Origin: Actinomycetota bacterium
GTDB lineage: Bacteria; Actinomycetota; Acidimicrobiia; Acidimicrobiales; JAMCPD01
DNA: 64,000 bases
Assembly: GCA_023379935.1 (NCBI GenBank)
Contig: JAMCPD010000003.1
Coordinates: 60,276-124,275 of the forward strand
Reading direction: 5' to 3'
The position numbers were made by a program, and so were the translations under genes. Below are positions 2-48,148 of the stretch, in pieces (the first letter of the stretch is position 1; each line of letters opens with the position of its first letter). The notes beneath the pieces are model-generated. The model did no database searches. It was not told the DNA's origin and was given only the letters and a program-made list of their open reading frames with translations.

Positions 2-1327
2 AGAGCACCTCAAAATCGTTGGGGGAGCGGTTCTTTGCAAGAACTTAACCATATACCGATAGTCGACTCAATCACAAAGTTGTCTCTCACATCAACAACA
101 ACCGCTTCAATCCCGGATACCATAACCAATGCTATATCGGTTGCACTAACTCCCCATCGCGGTCCTGTTTTTGTGGATATACCGCTTGATGTTCTTTTCG
201 ACGAAGCCGAGGCTGAGATACCGTTGCAGTCGTCATCTGTGATTGCACCTCAACCAGATGAAGCTGATCTGAAAAAGGTGGCTGTTTTGTTGGCAAAAGC
301 TTCAAAACCAGCCATTATCGCCGGTTCGGATATATGGTGGGGGAAAGCATGGGAAGCCTTGCAAAATCTGGTGGAACTCCTGCGTATCCCTACCTTTACA
401 AACGGTCAAGCCAGAGGTTGCCTAACTTCAGACCATGAACTTTATTTTTCACGTACAAGATACAAACTAAAGGAGTCCGACATAGTGGTGGTAGTCGGTA
501 CACCACTTGATTTCAGACTTTCTTTCGGGCAGTTTGGAGATGGAGAGGTGATACACATTATGGACAGCCCACCGGCAAACCATCCTCTTGGTGTAAGGCT
601 GAACACCAGCTTAATTGGAGATTTGAAACACATCCTAACTGAGTTGAGCAACCATCTGCCTGAACAGGTAAAAGATCACGAAACATGGATTGATGAGTTG
701 CGAAGCGAAGAAGATGCTATCAGGCAAGACGAACATGCCCAAATGACTGCCGCTTTCTCAGCAAAACCCATTCACCCAATTGCTCTGTATGGAGAGTTGA
801 ATAAATACCTGGATAAGGATGCAGTTGTAATAGGCGACGGCGGAGACTTTGTTTCTTGGGCGGGAAAGTTGATTAACTCATATCAACCCGGCTGTTGGAT
901 GGATCCCGGCCCTTATGGATGTTTAGGTACCGGATTGGGCTATGCAACGGCAGCGAGGATAGCACACCCCGATCGCCAAGTAGTACTTTTGGCTGGAGAC
1001 GGCGCCTTCGGTTTTTCCGCCATAGAGTTAGATACCCTGGTACGCCACAAGATTGCTGTTGTCATTATAGTGGGTAACAACGGGATATGGGGACTGGAAA
1101 AACACCCTATGAAAATGCTCTATGGATATGACGTAGCCGCTGACCTACAACCTGAATGCCATTACGACAAGCTTGGGATAGCGTTGGGAGGAGGCGGCGA
1201 AACCATATCATCATTAAAAGAGTTCGGCCCTGCAATAAAACGTGCCTTTAGCGCCAAAGTGCCTTACGTGTTGAATATCTTGCTTGACCCCCAAGTTGCA
1301 TACCCACGTACGTCCAGTCTGGCTTGA
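2..1327 (+). CDS. Acetolactate synthase-like TPP-dependent enzyme, 5' end cut by window
   Basis: Thiamine-pyrophosphate enzyme of the acetolactate synthase / oxalyl-CoA decarboxylase superfamily. The frame stays open from base 2, and the residues before the TTG at 35 (GSGSLQELNHIPIVDSITK) match the GxGSFQElD segment of ALS-like proteins, so about 100 N-terminal residues lie outside the window. The central domain and the C-terminal TPP domain are present. The TPP motif GDGAFGFSAIELDTLV followed by VGNNGIWGLEKHPM lies near residues 321-360 of the ORF. The closest pattern I recall is mycobacterial IlvG (LEKHPM, MLYGYDV, VAYPR). No small subunit or other branched-chain amino acid gene is beside it, so the physiological reaction is uncertain. 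Confidence 0.85.
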   Translation, partial: RAPQNRWGSGSLQELNHIPIVDSITKLSLTSTTTASIPDTITNAISVALTPHRGPVFVDIPLDVLFDEAEAEIPLQSSSVIAPQPDEADLKKVAVLLAKASKPAIIAGSDIWWGKAWEALQNLVELLRIPTFTNGQARGCLTSDHELYFSRTRYKLKESDIVVVVGTPLDFRLSFGQFGDGEVIHIMDSPPANHPLGVRLNTSLIGDLKHILTELSNHLPEQVKDHETWIDELRSEEDAIRQDEHAQMTAAFSAKPIHPIALYGELNKYLDKDAVVIGDGGDFVSWAGKLINSYQPGCWMDPGPYGCLGTGLGYATAARIAHPDRQVVLLAGDGAFGFSAIELDTLVRHKIAVVIIVGNNGIWGLEKHPMKMLYGYDVAADLQPECHYDKLGIALGGGGETISSLKEFGPAIKRAFSAKVPYVLNILLDPQVAYPRTSSLA

Positions 1328-1701
1328 ACTCCGCTCGTTGTGAGCAAAAGTATGCCCACACGACTTGGCGACACAGTTTGAGGCTGACCATATACGAGAT
1401 CCGTTCCTTGATCAATATGATCTAAGTGTTATCTTTCGAATCTGTAACGGTCGTCGGGTAATACATTAATCGTACAATGTGAGAAGATATTTTCTAAAAC
1501 AGCTGCTGGCCCCGTCTCCAACCTCATATCTCTCAGGCCGGCTGCTCGTGTCAGCCGGTAGTATGATACAACTGGCCAACTGGTATTACCACCTTGTCAA
1601 CGCCGACTTTTTAAACTTCATCCCAGCCGGTGATACTTGAACATCTGTTCTTATGCCGAATGGTAAAAAATATGTAACTCAAGAAGACGCGGATAACGTA
1701 G
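1328..1701. other. Intergenic stretch, no gene seen
   Basis: No convincing ORF. There is a perfect 7-bp hairpin (ccggctg...cagccgg, 1538-1558) without a following T-run, so it is not called as a terminator. The rest is probably the tail of the upstream transcript and the promoter zone of rnpB. Confidence 0.4.
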
Positions 1702-4767: not shown

Positions 4768-4789
4768 TATCACTACAAGGTAGCACTGC

Positions 4790-5713
4790 ATGGAACAGAT
4801 AAAGGCACAATCTCAAAATAATATCTCTAACTTGAAAGCCCTGGAGGATGAGGCTGTATTCATCATGCGTGAAGTAGCCGCTGAGTGCGAACGACCTGTT
4901 CTGCTGTTTAGCGGAGGAAAGGACTCTGCGGTACTGTTGAGGCTGGCTGAAAAAGCATTCAGGCCCGGTGGATTTCCCTTTCCAATCATGCACATAGACA
5001 CGGGACACAACTTTGAAGAGGTTATCAACTTCAGAGACAAGCGAGCAAGAGAACTCGGCGAAAAGCTTATAGTAGCGAGCGTACAAGACACCATTGACAA
5101 AGGAAGGGCGGTTGAGCATGCTCCGGGCGCATCCCGTAATCGCATCCAGAGTATAACCTTGATGGATGCCGTAGCTGAATGGAAGTTTGATGCACTAATC
5201 GGTGGGGCAAGAAGGGACGAAGATAAAGCCCGAGCCAAAGAACGCGTACTGTCGCTCAGAGACCGTTTTGGACACTGGGACCCCCGGAATCAACGCCCCG
5301 AACTGTGGAACCTCTACCATGCCAAAGTCCGATCCGGCGAACATCTACGAGCCTTCCCCCTATCGAACTGGACAGAGTTGGACGTATGGAACTATATAGC
5401 ACAAGAAAAACTTGGGCTGCCGCCTATTTACTTTGCGCACAAGCGGCTGGTCTTTTATAAAGACAGTGCGCTGATGGCTGTAACACCTTTTCTTCAACCC
5501 ACAAAAGAGGAAAAGGCTTTCATGAAGACCGTACGGTTTAGAACAGTTGGTGATGCTACTTGTACTGCCGCCATATCTTCACATGCTGTTACTGTGCAAG
5601 AGGTTATAAATGAAATTTCATCCGCTTCCGTTTCTGAACGGGGTTCAAGTCGCGTTGATGACCATTTTTCTGAACACTCAATGGAGGATCGTAAAAAGGA
5701 AGGGTATTTTTAG
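4790..5713 (+). CDS. cysD: Sulfate adenylyltransferase subunit 2
   Basis: Catalytic PP-loop subunit of ATP sulfurylase, which makes APS from ATP and sulfate together with the GTPase CysN. The pyrophosphatase loop is LFSGGKDSAVLLRLAEKAF (SGGKDS near residue 41). Further family blocks are MHIDTGHNFEEVI, GGARRDEDKARAKER and FPLSNWTELDVWNYI. The length of 307 aa is normal. The stop codon abuts the GTG start of cysN with no gap, indicating tight translational coupling. Confidence 0.95.
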   Translation: MEQIKAQSQNNISNLKALEDEAVFIMREVAAECERPVLLFSGGKDSAVLLRLAEKAFRPGGFPFPIMHIDTGHNFEEVINFRDKRARELGEKLIVASVQDTIDKGRAVEHAPGASRNRIQSITLMDAVAEWKFDALIGGARRDEDKARAKERVLSLRDRFGHWDPRNQRPELWNLYHAKVRSGEHLRAFPLSNWTELDVWNYIAQEKLGLPPIYFAHKRLVFYKDSALMAVTPFLQPTKEEKAFMKTVRFRTVGDATCTAAISSHAVTVQEVINEISSASVSERGSSRVDDHFSEHSMEDRKKEGYF

Positions 5714-7831: not shown

Positions 7832-7889
7832 TAAACGCCGATAACAGCGTATTGCATAAAACTCCTTTTACTGCCGAGTAAACCTGAAC

Positions 7890-8157
7890 ATCTAAAATGG
7901 ACCCGGCAATTTTTAAGGAGTTTTTTTGTATAACCTTGCCCCAAATACACCCGCTGCAACTACACCAACAGCCAACGCTATCAACATAGCCAACCAACCG
8001 GAAGCCAGCTTATTGGAGGGCAGCGATTTAAAAAAGATGGCAGGGTTGACACCATAAAGACCGGTATTCCATATATCATGATGCCATCTTGTCCACTGAT
8101 TGGATTGCGATGCTTTACCCGATGGAGCTTTACCGGGTGTCTTCCATGCAAAAAGGT
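7890..8157 (-). pseudogene. Orphan 268-bp duplicate of the 3' end of the subtilase-like gene
   Basis: It is identical to 9445-9712 except for about three mismatches (ggacccgg/agatccgg, ccatgc/ccatac), at a constant offset of 1555. It encodes the last 80 or so codons of the 9468-13022 protein, including the C-terminal membrane anchor and the stop (7913-7915), with no upstream coding part. Homology ends abruptly at 8157. ORFs called here in other frames are shadows. Confidence 0.9.
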
Positions 8158-8288
8158 TAGGGTATTTACCGAATTGCTCGGACCCAAGCTGAAAGCAAAT
8201 CTTCTAATTCTGCCAAGACTTCACTTATTTGCTTCAGACAGTAATTCGTTAACTAAGACCAGGTATCATCAGTTGATGACATAACTTG

Positions 8289-8305
8289 AAGTTTATGTTA
8301 AACTT
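8289..8305. promoter_or_regulatory. Palindrome upstream of Phd-like antitoxin, probable operator
   Basis: Perfect inverted repeat aagttta-tgt-taaactt ending 5 bases before the antitoxin ATG. Phd/YefM antitoxins autoregulate by binding such palindromes, so this is a likely TA operator overlapping the promoter. Confidence 0.6.
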
Positions 8306-8310
8306 ATACC

Positions 8311-8613
8311 ATGAAGAGAATAACAGCAAAAGAGTTGCGAGACAACCTTGGCCAAATTGTTATTAGAGTCAGAAGAGGTGAACCAATAAGAGTAACTTAC
8401 CGCTCAAAACCGGCATTTATCCTTTACCCGGAAAATGCATATGAGTCCGTTAAACAAGGGAGCCAAGAGGCAATGAAGCAGTTTCTTAGTGAGACAATTA
8501 AACTCAGCAAATCAAAGAACAGGTCAATCTTCGACCAAAACGAGAATGTCAAAGATCTATATCATAAAATGCTTGACAACGATGTGAAATATCGGGAATC
8601 ATCCAACAATTGA
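8311..8613 (+). CDS. Phd/YefM family antitoxin
   Basis: A 100-aa DNA-binding antitoxin. The N-terminus (MKRITAKELRDNLGQIVIRVRRGEPIRVTYRSKPAFILYP) shows the Phd/YefM fold pattern: an A-x-E-x-R-xx-L helix and a basic strand ending in a hydrophobic pair. The C-terminal half is charged and helical, as expected for the toxin-neutralising tail. It overlaps the following PIN toxin gene by four bases. The cassette is bounded by 268-bp direct repeats, which suggests recent insertion or rearrangement. Confidence 0.85.
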   Translation: MKRITAKELRDNLGQIVIRVRRGEPIRVTYRSKPAFILYPENAYESVKQGSQEAMKQFLSETIKLSKSKNRSIFDQNENVKDLYHKMLDNDVKYRESSNN

Positions 8614-8978
8614 GTACATTTTTAGACACGAATGTTTTACTAGAAGTCCTGTTGCCGGATAGACCGAAAGCAAAAATTGCAGCAAAGTGCGCACAACGAG
8701 AATCAGTTGTGTCTCCGTTAACGGCACACCTTTACGTGTATTTCGGGAAAAAAGAAGGTTTTCCGTTAGATTCGCTAATGCGGAATCTAACACTATTGAA
8801 ATTCACAGATCTTGGTGATGCCGAGGTGCGATGGGCTGTAGCAAACTGCCAAGGCGATGATTTTGAGGATGCCCTCCAGGTGGCATGTGCTGTTACGTAC
8901 GGTTGTGAAGTATTTGTAACTCTAGACAAGTCCTTGGCCCAGAGATACAGAAGGTTTATAGACGTGAAGGTAGTTTGA
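8610..8978 (+). CDS. PIN-domain toxin (VapC-like)
   Basis: Putative ribonuclease toxin of 122 aa. Acidic PIN residues are visible: FLDTNVLLEVLLPDRP (first Asp, residue 6), DDFEDALQVACA (central acidic pair) and FVTLDKSLAQRY (C-terminal Asp). The start is a TTG inside a TTGA overlap with the antitoxin, the usual coupling of TA operons. A second-strand ORF across it is a shadow. The target RNA is unknown. Confidence 0.85.
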   Translation: MSTFLDTNVLLEVLLPDRPKAKIAAKCAQRESVVSPLTAHLYVYFGKKEGFPLDSLMRNLTLLKFTDLGDAEVRWAVANCQGDDFEDALQVACAVTYGCEVFVTLDKSLAQRYRRFIDVKVV

Positions 8979-9216
8979 GCGGTTAGATATCTTTAACGCA
9001 TTTCCCCTTGTGAGAAAAATACTATATAGCTCACCCACCTTGTGCCGTTGTTGACACAACAACGATAGGTAAGAGATTAGGCGCCTGCGCAAAAACGAAG
9101 AACTTGGTAGCGGCGATGCGCACCTGAACATCACTCCTATCCCTGATCATCACGTATTCCAGTGCGGACGGGGATGGTCACCATTTTATCCTCAATTCAA
9201 GCCCCAGCGACCAAAC

Positions 9217-9450
9217 GTGTGCTTGCATCACTGCTTCAACATTGTTATACCAGAAGTAAGTAATGTTCCTATGTCAATCGCGAGTGAAATTATTTCCAAA
9301 ACCAACAGCGCCATAATTGGAGATTCAAGAAAATCTCACTCAATAGCTCCGCTCTATAGCGAAGAATTCAAAGCAATCTTGGATGCGATCGCGACAGCGG
9401 GGAAGATTAGAAATCAATTTGAACACCTATTCGCCAAAGGCGGGATCTAA
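9217..9450 (+). CDS. Small hypothetical ORF
   Basis: An ORF of 77 aa, or 59 aa from the internal ATG near 9271 (MSIASEIISKTNSAI). The C-terminal half (SEEFKAILDAIATAGKIRNQFEHLF) is amphipathic and could be helical, but I recognise no family. The stop lies inside the first bases of the right-hand 268-bp repeat, so the ORF may be a truncated relic of a gene cut by the rearrangement. No clear ribosome site. Confidence 0.3.
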   Translation: MCLHHCFNIVIPEVSNVPMSIASEIISKTNSAIIGDSRKSHSIAPLYSEEFKAILDAIATAGKIRNQFEHLFAKGGI

Positions 9451-9712
9451 AATAGATCCGGCAATTTTTAAGGAGTTTTTTTGTATAACCTTGCCCCAAA
9501 TACACCCGCTGCAACTACACCAACAGCCAACGCTATCAACATAGCCAACCAACCGGAAGCCAGCTTATTGGAGGGCAGCGATTTAAAAAAGATGGCAGGG
9601 TTGACACCATAAAGACCGGTATTCCATATATCATGATGCCATCTTGTCCACTGATTGGATTGCGATGCTTTACCCGATGGAGCTTTACCGGGTGTCTTCC
9701 ATACAAAAAGGT
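9445..9712 (-). repeat. 268-bp direct repeat, right copy (native 3' end of subtilase-like gene)
   Basis: Partner of 7890-8157. This copy is continuous with the full-length gene and is therefore the original. Confidence 0.9.
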
Positions 9713-12700
9713 ATCCTTCTCTGGTCACAAGCGTCAGATCGATATGACCATTACCCAGTAAATCTGCAGATGTAGGAGAAAAAATAGACCACCCACCTGT
9801 AAACTTGGGGAAACCGGCAGCCTGGCGACCGTTTGGCAGGAAAGCCATCAGGCTTTCCGAATCTCCGCCACCCACAATCGCATTTTGCCCTGAAGAAGTA
9901 ACATCTGTGATAATCGGCGCACCGAGAAAATCAAGTCCCTGGGCAAGAGAGGGAAACCCCGGCAAGGCTGATCCTCCCTTTGCCGGAAACGCAAGCTCAT
10001 AGTTTTTTATTCCATATCCGCTTCCCGATAGAGTCTCTGCCGCAACCAAGGTAGGAGCGTCGGTCATTGCTTGAGCAAAGATCAACTTTGACCCAAACTG
10101 TCCAAAAGCTCCTGAGCTTGTAAAAGGGAAGTCCACATTAGACGGAAGCTGACCTTTTAGAACAGCAAGCGGATTGGAGTTGGTTTTGATTATGCCTCCT
10201 AGGGTGGAGGAAAAAGAACCGTATTTTTGAACAATTTTGCCGCCTCCGTTGATCAAATATGGTGGTGACCATATGGGACCTGCCTCAATATAGTCCTTCC
10301 CCTGCGGATTGTTGTTGACGTTTGCCGCAACCGGCTCATCTGTTCCTTCTGTAACAAACTCCATAGCGGTACCATAACCTTCCAGTATGCCTGGCAGTCG
10401 AACCGGCCATCCCGGCAATGGCTTGCCGTCGGCTTGGAATGCATATATCCAACCGTAGGGTAAAAGCTGCGGGCCGGAAGTATTAGGTATCTCGGTAAAC
10501 TGGCTTCTTTCAACTATGTCGGGAGGTTTGTTCTTACCTTGCAGATAGGCAATTGTCGGTGTTGACTCCAGTTTGTGATCCGCCTCCCATGTATACTCGC
10601 CAGGAAGGACGGTGTTGTTTGGTCTATGCACCGCGACGGGCCAACCGGGCAGGGCAGCTCCATCAGGCTGCCAAGCATATATCTTCCCGTCCCAAGATGC
10701 CTGTATGATATCCAAGCGATTGGCAGAACCCAACGGAAACAGCACAGGCGCAGCCAACGCACCACACACCGGCAACCTAACATGAGGCAACTCCGGCCTG
10801 GGTATGGGGGGAGATTTGAGACCGCCACACACACTTTGGGGCCAACCTGGGCGTAACTTACCGTAGCGATTAAACACATAGACCTTGCCGTCCATGGTCG
10901 TGGCAACTACAGACAACTTACCATTGTTGTATAAACTCCCAACTGCCACATCAGACAGTATCGGCTCATAACCCGGATTGATACCTTTATGCGGGCCAAT
11001 TACATGCACTGCTTCTGTGTGCACCGGCCAACCGGGCAGTTCGGCTCGGGTAACGGGATTGATTGCATCTATCTGCCCGGAAGAAGTTCCAAAAACTATA
11101 TCTTGAACGCCCCCTGCGCTGGATTGCAGGTTGACCAGTGCGGGCTGGCTCTCACCGGAGGAACCAATCTGATATGGGAACCCTTTCAGCCAAGTAGGAT
11201 CATAAACCACCTCCACAACTCTTCTGCTGATTCCAACTAAGGAGGTTGTCATTGGTGCAGGCTGTAAACAAGGCAGACATGGCCCTCCTGAAGTAGTGAG
11301 CGTCGCTTCTACACGTAAGGTTACATTATACTGATTGGCAGTGTGTAAAAACTTGCTGTTTGACATTGAAAATGGTTTAGACCAAAAAGACTTAGGTATT
11401 AAAGAGGTCTTCAAAACCGCAAGCCTTCCCGTAAAAGCCCCGACTCCGCTTCCGCCACCTATGTTGAACCAGGATGTAGGTTGGTCCCCAAGCCCCGCTT
11501 GAACTACCCATTTGAAAGACTGGCCTGGCAGCTCAGCATGAATGCTGCCCGTAACGGTTAATTCAGAAGTAGTGACGGGGTTCACAATGCGATACCAGTC
11601 GGGCGAAGCAATACTGACAACGGGGGGAATCTGGTCCTGAGCAATCGCCTCCATTGCTGCATAGACGTTTGGAATTCCATATCCATACTGCGGATTCCAT
11701 TTTCGCCCCGGTGTTCCCGGCCACGGAAGGTTCGGATTGGTCACCGAGGTTGCGGTATCTGCTAAGATCTGAACGGCTTCCGCCCCACTGAGCGGGCGGG
11801 AAATGAGATGCTCACGGTATGCCTTCTGCCCGAAAGACAACACCAACCCTATGATTCCCCCCAATGTAGGTGTGGATTCAGAGGTAGATCCACCGGCGCT
11901 CAGCACCGTAAGAAAGTTATGCGGACCAAAAGAGGTTAAATCCGAACGGGTATAAACGATAGGCATACCGGATGCAACAGTTGCGCCAAGGCCGTTGGAT
12001 GTCCTAACTCCCCCATTGCCCGGCAACACGTGAGGCCAGAACATACCTCCTTGATGATCCATAGAATCAAAGTCATTGGAAGCTTCCACCATTACAACTC
12101 CCCGTTTATGGAGGGTATTGATAACTTGAGCCATGAACGGTGAGTAACCGAGATCAGCCGTAACGGAAACTATCACCTTAGCACCCTGGTTCGCGGCAAA
12201 CAGCCAGGCTTTCGCCAGTTCTGTTGTGGTGTCAATGGCTTCATCACCCGCTTTAACCGGCATAATCATACATCTCGGGCACATGGCATGCAGTACCGTC
12301 ATCTGATCATCCGAGTGAGAATAAGCGGCATCTACGGTAGCGGGATCGTTTTGATTATCATAAAAGTCCCAACCCGAAATATCATTGGGATAACCGGAAT
12401 GGTCATGATTCATATTATTGGAAAAAGCCGCAATCAAATCTTCCGGATCTATATATCCATTGTGGTTGACATCATGCACTCTTGGATCAGATGACCATTC
12501 ATTAGCGTTTATAACTCCATCATGATCCAGATCGTAGTTTGCAAAATTATTGGAATAAACCAAGGAGCAGTTTTCACGCTTACCGTTTACCGTCATAACT
12601 GCTGTTGAAACTGTTTCTCCGACACAAGGAACAGGCAGCTCATGCCAGTTCACATATATGTTGTTAACCAAACTCTTAGCTTCACCTAAATGCCAGTTAA

Positions 12701-13022
12701 TGCCACCTTCTATATAGGCAATCAAGATATGTGAACTTCCGGTGGTAAAACGTGACCAAGCAGCAGTTAAGTTCATACCGCCGGGACCCCAACGTGGGTT
12801 GAGGGGTGCTGGCGGCTGGAATGAACCAGAGGATGCCTGAGGTGATTTTAGAATCGTCTTTGTCGTGTTAGGACCGCCAACTCCACTCGTCTTTGTGGCG
12901 CTGGTCACGATAACCCCTGAACTGCTAAGTCCGACAACAATGGACAACACGATAAAAACTGTGAGCGGGACCGCAAAACTGAAGACATCTACAAATCTAA
13001 GCAATATTTTTGACAAACTCAT
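9468..13022 (-). CDS. Membrane-anchored subtilase-like protein with EF-hand and propeller repeats
   Basis: A 1184-aa surface protein. Order: N-terminal hydrophobic segment (about 10-33); S8 subtilase-like domain with two calcium-loop motifs inserted (DLDHDGVINANEW and DVNHNGYIDPEDL); linker; then about six [LA]PGWP/PGFP-containing repeats typical of FG-GAP/VCBS-like beta-propellers; and a C-terminal transmembrane helix with a short basic tail (LARLYKK-like). Catalytic positions: the usual Asp is Glu (IAYIEGGI), His appears kept in YSHSDDQ, and Ser kept in STSESTPTLGG although the HGTH and GTS glycines are changed. Activity is therefore uncertain. Likely extracytoplasmic. Its 3' 268 bp is duplicated on the far side of the TA cassette. 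Confidence 0.8.
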   Translation of the reverse strand: MSLSKILLRFVDVFSFAVPLTVFIVLSIVVGLSSSGVIVTSATKTSGVGGPNTTKTILKSPQASSGSFQPPAPLNPRWGPGGMNLTAAWSRFTTGSSHILIAYIEGGINWHLGEAKSLVNNIYVNWHELPVPCVGETVSTAVMTVNGKRENCSLVYSNNFANYDLDHDGVINANEWSSDPRVHDVNHNGYIDPEDLIAAFSNNMNHDHSGYPNDISGWDFYDNQNDPATVDAAYSHSDDQMTVLHAMCPRCMIMPVKAGDEAIDTTTELAKAWLFAANQGAKVIVSVTADLGYSPFMAQVINTLHKRGVVMVEASNDFDSMDHQGGMFWPHVLPGNGGVRTSNGLGATVASGMPIVYTRSDLTSFGPHNFLTVLSAGGSTSESTPTLGGIIGLVLSFGQKAYREHLISRPLSGAEAVQILADTATSVTNPNLPWPGTPGRKWNPQYGYGIPNVYAAMEAIAQDQIPPVVSIASPDWYRIVNPVTTSELTVTGSIHAELPGQSFKWVVQAGLGDQPTSWFNIGGGSGVGAFTGRLAVLKTSLIPKSFWSKPFSMSNSKFLHTANQYNVTLRVEATLTTSGGPCLPCLQPAPMTTSLVGISRRVVEVVYDPTWLKGFPYQIGSSGESQPALVNLQSSAGGVQDIVFGTSSGQIDAINPVTRAELPGWPVHTEAVHVIGPHKGINPGYEPILSDVAVGSLYNNGKLSVVATTMDGKVYVFNRYGKLRPGWPQSVCGGLKSPPIPRPELPHVRLPVCGALAAPVLFPLGSANRLDIIQASWDGKIYAWQPDGAALPGWPVAVHRPNNTVLPGEYTWEADHKLESTPTIAYLQGKNKPPDIVERSQFTEIPNTSGPQLLPYGWIYAFQADGKPLPGWPVRLPGILEGYGTAMEFVTEGTDEPVAANVNNNPQGKDYIEAGPIWSPPYLINGGGKIVQKYGSFSSTLGGIIKTNSNPLAVLKGQLPSNVDFPFTSSGAFGQFGSKLIFAQAMTDAPTLVAAETLSGSGYGIKNYELAFPAKGGSALPGFPSLAQGLDFLGAPIITDVTSSGQNAIVGGGDSESLMAFLPNGRQAAGFPKFTGGWSIFSPTSADLLGNGHIDLTLVTREGYLFVWKTPGKAPSGKASQSNQWTRWHHDIWNTGLYGVNPAIFFKSLPSNKLASGWLAMLIALAVGVVAAGVFGARLYKKTP

Positions 13023-47719: not shown

Positions 47720-48148
47720 TTATCTCAGCGGATTGATCCAGGTAACCCTATCAGCGAAGAGTGCAAAGTCGCTGTCAGCCGAGACAATCGGTAACCCGTG
47801 CTCTATCGCAATCGCAGCCAAATGGGCATCGGCAATCAAATTACCTGATAATTTGAAACCTGTAACCAACCCGCCAAATACTTCTATGTGTCGATCGGTC
47901 GGGACTGGATGCCATACTAGATCAGCTGCCGCCCAGGCGTATACGTAATCCAAGGCATTATCCGGACTCAACGGATTGCGCATTGCTCGCGGATTGGTGA
48001 CAATCCGGACGAACCCTGCTAATGATTCCCAGGGCATGCCTATCCGCGTTGATCCGTTCAGCGCTGACTCGAGCCATGTACGCACCGTGCTGTGCTCGGA
48101 AGACATCTCATCGACGGCATATATCAGAATATTGGTATCAATGAGCAT
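47720..48148 (-). CDS. vapC: PIN-domain toxin VapC
   Basis: A 142-aa PIN ribonuclease. MLIDTNILIYAVDE (Asp 4), PWESLAGFVRIVTNP (central Glu), NLIADAHLAAIAIEHG (Asp) and VSADSDFALF (terminal acidic pair) form the catalytic set, all intact. The ATG overlaps the antitoxin stop. Located beside tRNA-Arg among IS remnants. Confidence 0.92.
   Translation of the reverse strand: MLIDTNILIYAVDEMSSEHSTVRTWLESALNGSTRIGMPWESLAGFVRIVTNPRAMRNPLSPDNALDYVYAWAAADLVWHPVPTDRHIEVFGGLVTGFKLSGNLIADAHLAAIAIEHGLPIVSADSDFALFADRVTWINPLR

Follow-up and report, generated by a model that had tools for sequence, protein, structure and literature searches.

How the 3′ end of a protein-coding gene came to stand on both sides of a toxin-antitoxin (TA) module is the question raised by this locus, which lies in a 64,000-nucleotide stretch of an Actinomycetota bacterium genome (the window). 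A repeat search of the window identified two direct copies of a 268-bp segment, at positions 7,890–8,157 and 9,445–9,712, with a start-to-start spacing of 1,555 bp and 1,287 bp between them. These are identical at 265 of 268 positions, which bears out the ~99% match given in the first-pass annotation, and the three mismatches (left-copy positions 7,899, 7,902 and 8,148) are near the repeat edges, with no difference over the central 245 bp. No other near-identical repeat with closely spaced copies occurs in the window, where the remaining repeat families are diverged protein repeats. As had also been noted, a full gene is attached to the right copy alone, which forms the 3′ end of an intact open reading frame (ORF; 9,468–13,022, minus strand) for a predicted 1184-aa, secreted protease-like protein with a repeat domain and relatives that are 44–54% identical, while the left one is an orphan. 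Draft in status, the host genome comprises 25 contigs with overlaps of exactly 127 bp, and since this is shorter than the 245-bp identical core, the arrangement depends on how the assembler resolved the repeat.

The DNA between the copies carries, as first described, a Phd/PIN module with an operator. It comprises a Phd/YefM-type antitoxin gene (8,311–8,613, plus strand; PF02604, E 3.8e-9, 36.6 bits against a cut-off of 29.8; TIGR01552) and a PIN-domain toxin gene with a TTG start (8,610–8,978, plus strand; PF13470 (PIN_3), E 1.1e-9, 39.5 bits against a cut-off of 27; PF01850 also above cut-off), which overlaps the antitoxin stop by 4 bp and lies in one operon with it, as in a type II Phd/PIN (VapC-like) module. 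An operator-like palindrome, AAGTTTATGTTAAACTT (8,289–8,305), is located just upstream of the point where antitoxin translation starts, and three homologous modules have its core conserved. The toxin had no match in the PDB. It is, however, 80–88% identical in amino acid sequence to proteins at four loci in genomes from other families of the order, with 77–81% DNA identity between modules over about 700 bp. Those four loci are mutually unrelated and none of them is bracketed by repeats, so the same TA pair flanked by 3′-end duplicates of other genes, as proposed for a mobile cassette, was not found there. Likewise, no dispersed copies of the cassette were detected in its own genome or in plasmids. 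Pairwise dN was 0.06–0.10 for the toxin with dS above 1, and about 0.2 for the antitoxin with dS of 0.7–0.95, so the toxin is under purifying selection, which is consistent with a putative toxicity relieved by the antitoxin. Judged from these comparisons, the pair is a horizontally acquired, mobile and functionally constrained module, and it moves by other means as well.

The insert is a mosaic. Its left part (8,158–8,241) has no recognisable insertion sequence (IS) left end and no other match in its own genome, and a fragment at 9,139–9,276 resembles a stretch of genome G176 (80% over 138 bp). When this fragment was compared with L014:1501-1539 and L137:1501-1636, both relatives' matches began at the same base (ATCCCTGAT...) and shared a minus-strand frame ending RTGxRDxQG-stop. 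The window also contains a second PIN-domain toxin-like gene (47,756–48,148, minus strand; C3:108031-108423), with no close direct repeats around it.

The last ~165 bp ahead of the right copy derive from an IS. Using protein and DNA searches, we found that 9,277–9,444 (plus strand) resembles sequence located at the very beginning of host-genome contigs C11, C12 and C13, as well as within C17 and C21, and consists of a transposase C-terminus followed by an IS right terminus, ACCTATTCGCCAAAGGCGGG (9,425–9,444). The last base of this terminus is 9,444 and the first base of the right repeat copy is 9,445. The common C-terminus reads ISKTNSAIIGDSRKSHSIAPLYSEEFKAILDA in the window and INNTNSAVIGNKRKSHLIDPLYTKEFSEILES in C17, and in the resident elements it is followed by a terminus ...ACCTATTTGCGGAAGACGGG, beyond which the contigs diverge. 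Relic and resident elements match at 66% over 112 bp and at 80% over the terminal 20 bp (CCCGCCTTTGGCGAATAGGT compared with the resident CCC[AG]TCTTC[CAG]GCnnnTAGGT), with departures from the resident consensus at two outer positions; the relic is thus a sister, though a diverged one, to those elements. As the transposase is cut to its last ~55 codons, which match the resident copies and score nothing alone against the family profile, its family was assigned from homologues: in related genomes, fuller proteins that share this C-terminus belong to the transposases of the IS1634 family (NCBIfam NF033559, E 2.4e-72 and 3e-38). The transposase body is absent from the insert, and no left terminal repeat (CCC[AG]TCTTC) was found at or near 8,158. 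In searching for IS ends, a first loose pattern gave 276 mostly chance matches and two stricter patterns were used instead. A resemblance to an IS end at 8,139–8,167 falls mostly in sequence native to the gene and is not put forward as the left end.

We also examined which of the junctions are ancestral. At the left, flanking sequence at 7,857–7,877 (AAAACTCCTTTTACTGCCGAG) and the beginning of the left copy (CCCGGCAATTTTTAAGGAGTTTT) pair up in a strong two-way terminator-like hairpin (7,857–7,922), placed between the target gene and a convergent siroheme-synthase-like gene, with predicted folding energies of -21.4 (plus strand) and -24.8 kcal/mol (minus strand) and z-scores of -3.7 and -4.6, and no shuffled sequence equalled it. 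This hairpin bridges left flank and left copy, whereas the right copy has no outer arm, so that the fold is broken there. The junction between left flank and left copy is therefore ancestral, as is, given the intact gene, that between right copy and gene. The new material is therefore the 1,287-bp insert plus one extra 268-bp segment, the layout required of a target duplication. In place of the disrupted hairpin, the junction of IS and right copy holds another terminator-like site, a perfect hairpin GGATCTA-AAA-TAGATCC (9,443–9,459), whose first GG is IS-derived. Two of the three copy differences (7,899/9,454 and 7,902/9,457) are right-copy changes that convert the junction GGATCTAAAATGGACCC into this perfect hairpin, and both could stem from one templated quasi-palindrome correction after insertion. 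If so, only one further difference separates the copies, which supports the claim that the event is recent.

Direct repeats of 15, 51, 126 and ~218 bp surround sister elements with the same end in the same genome. Contig starts with opposite IS ends share target sequence in inverted order, over 51 bp for C2/C12 and 126 bp for C3/C11, and on C17 a 703-bp internally deleted copy has a 15-bp duplication. The fourth case, on C16 (L053:14639-16517), is a ~218-bp repeat with 96% identical copies, in which an intact 345-aa gene has copy 1 as its 3′ end and the IS right end abuts copy 2. Between these copies are ~1.4 kb of other DNA with a coiled-coil ORF and no recognisable left end, and the IS right end is itself duplicated (L053 15059-15180 and 16175-16296). 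The anatomy on C16 is thus the same as at the TA locus, with an IS right end at the repeat edge and a duplicated gene 3′ end. Together with the 268 bp at that locus, the target-site duplications (TSDs) that abut this terminus are long and variable. The 127-bp overlaps of C9/C10 and C1/C25 were dropped as candidate TSDs of 127 bp or more, being equal to the assembly overlap and equally explicable as empty-site heterogeneity, and a 62-bp repeat around the C2 IS (14804) was left unused because no right end of that IS could be recognised. In genome G150 there is a further ~300-bp direct repeat (L194:3529-3857 and 5078-5382; 95–98%) that starts ~200 bp downstream of the end of an IS1634 transposase. 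It involves a gene 3′ end and may either be comparable or consist of repeated coding sequence.

Taken together, we consider it very probable that an IS1634-type insertion left the 268-bp repeat as its long TSD. This reading is supported by the IS terminus at 9,444 directly before the repeat at 9,445, by the kinship with resident transposases, by the sister repeats, by the ancestral junctions, and by the literature, in which IS1634 and IS1549 have direct repeats of 8–514 bp, with no mechanistic model proposed (PMC2266710). Counting against it are the lack of a left end at 8,158, the two differences in the terminus, the reduction of the transposase to ~55 codons, and the 6-bp repeats to which other IS1634 members are confined (PMC8024623). 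In the proposed sequence of events, an IS1634-family element would have landed at the 1184-aa gene's 3′ end, with 268 bp of target being duplicated, presumably through transposase-made cuts about 268 bp apart followed by copying of the target. One edge of the duplicated target would lie beyond the stop codon, leaving the gene whole on one side and an orphan 3′ end on the other, and it is for this reason that the gene seems rebuilt; neither gene-end targeting nor an integrase is required. The element would have kept its right end only, with the Phd/PIN pair in place of the transposase body and left end.

Whether that pair arrived with the element is a sub-question within the TSD reading, the repeat being a TSD either way. 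We favour the TA pair as cargo of an already transposase-less element, mainly since 99% identical copies leave little time for later rearrangement. The other history, to which we give somewhat less than an even chance, is that a plain IS1634 insertion made the TSD, and that a later deletion or recombination put the TA pair in the place of the IS body and left end. It would account for the missing left end and transposase body, for the mosaic insert and for a TA pair that also moves by other routes, but would have to fit the loss of well over 1 kb and the gain of the TA pair into the little time that the copies allow.

The first-pass annotation had suggested a mobile cassette that rebuilds the 3′ end of its target as tRNA islands do; a recent mobile insertion that left the target gene intact through a duplicated 3′ end holds in outline, whereas the tRNA-island-like mechanism is not supported, with no integrase or recombinase ORF between the repeats and no att-like core seen. 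In its explicit form this would be an integrative micro-element, a circle holding the gene 3′ end and the TA pair that integrated site-specifically or by single crossover. The order of left flank, repeat, insert, repeat and gene fits a single crossover, as do the ancestral outer junctions, and another TA pair of the same genome lies between tRNA-Arg ends; yet such an element would lack its recombinase, the edge of the right repeat copy is an IS terminus, and none of the four homologous TA loci lies at a duplicated gene end, so we regard it as improbable. Just as improbable, in our estimate, is the other suggestion of that annotation, an unequal duplication, or more broadly an unequal or illegitimate recombination that duplicated the gene end with the IS relic adjacent by chance. 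The left junction without an IS end would suit it, but it leaves unexplained why the IS terminus matches the repeat edge to the base and why the same arrangement occurs again on C16. An assembly artefact seems the least likely of all: the genome is a draft with contig overlaps shorter than the identical core, but the copies differ at both ends, at positions beside their own flanks, and an artefact would leave both the terminus coincidence and the independent C16 parallel, with its 96% identical copies, unexplained. As for an empty site, the nearest genomes compared, which share only the order, gave no alignment at this position, and the neighbours of the target gene's protein relatives are unrelated.

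We finally assessed how PIN-domain loci relate to direct repeats. In the host genome 3 of 12 lie between close direct repeats, while gaps between such repeats make up ~1.7% of the sequence; with the window case excluded (2 of 11), P = 0.009, a value from small numbers and a test devised after seeing the cases, and we treat the pattern as a lead only. The three loci are that in the window, a PIN pair on C12 and a Phd/PIN pair on C25. On C12 (C12:104100-106367; L068:4100-6367), a PIN toxin gene (4926–5429, true start probably ~5034) and a small upstream gene (4787–5032) are enclosed by two 639-bp copies, in direct orientation, of an IS1634 element that keeps both its ends but has an internal deletion; the whole forms a composite carrying TA cargo, with an outer direct repeat of about 13 bp. 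On C25 (C25:24675-25689; L033:766-1780), the pair (980–1671, minus strand) lies between 46-bp copies of the 3′ end of tRNA-Arg(CCG), 893 bp apart, with the intact tRNA gene at L033:1706-1780 (minus strand) and no integrase, as in a minimal tRNA-site island. Because insertions with very long target duplications are readily deleted by recombination between the repeats, a TA passenger would penalise their loss. Stabilisation of the repeat-bracketed structure by TA addiction, as first proposed, is possible; that TA modules are selected in such insertions as excision locks is a more speculative, rather unlikely proposition, and a testable idea on why TA pairs sit between direct repeats.

The locus is best read as a tidy example of known mobile-DNA behaviour and not as a new gene-end-repairing cassette. 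It adds an Acidimicrobiales example of long, variable IS1634-family target duplications, and a single genome with several repeats of different lengths provides a setting for studying the mechanism of long duplication. It also shows that a long-TSD insertion can mimic a gene-rebuilding island, a trap when integrative elements are hunted via repeated gene ends. Gene-integrating elements that restore the 3′ end of their target, for example in icd or tRNA genes, require an integrase and a defined att site; the present locus shares with them the duplicated 3′ end and the one full gene copy, but has neither integrase nor defined att site. Tn3-family transposons likewise carry type II TA pairs, PIN_3 toxins included (PMC7157771), but are large, replicative elements with resolution sites, whereas the present locus holds an IS1634 relic. 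Mobile insertion cassettes (MICs) such as MIC231 (IS4 family, IS231 group) have passenger DNA with an IS end and no full transposase, and their passenger is on the left-end side of the transposase remnant, as here (PMC2266710). However, MICs keep both terminal repeats enclosing the passenger and the present locus has the right end only, which speaks against a standard two-ended cassette, and we have not filed it as a MIC. The locus also resembles IS1634 of Mycoplasma mycoides and IS1549 of Mycobacterium smegmatis, with their long, variable direct repeats and related transposase C-terminus, from which it differs in keeping only the right end, with no recognisable left end, and in the presence of a TA pair.
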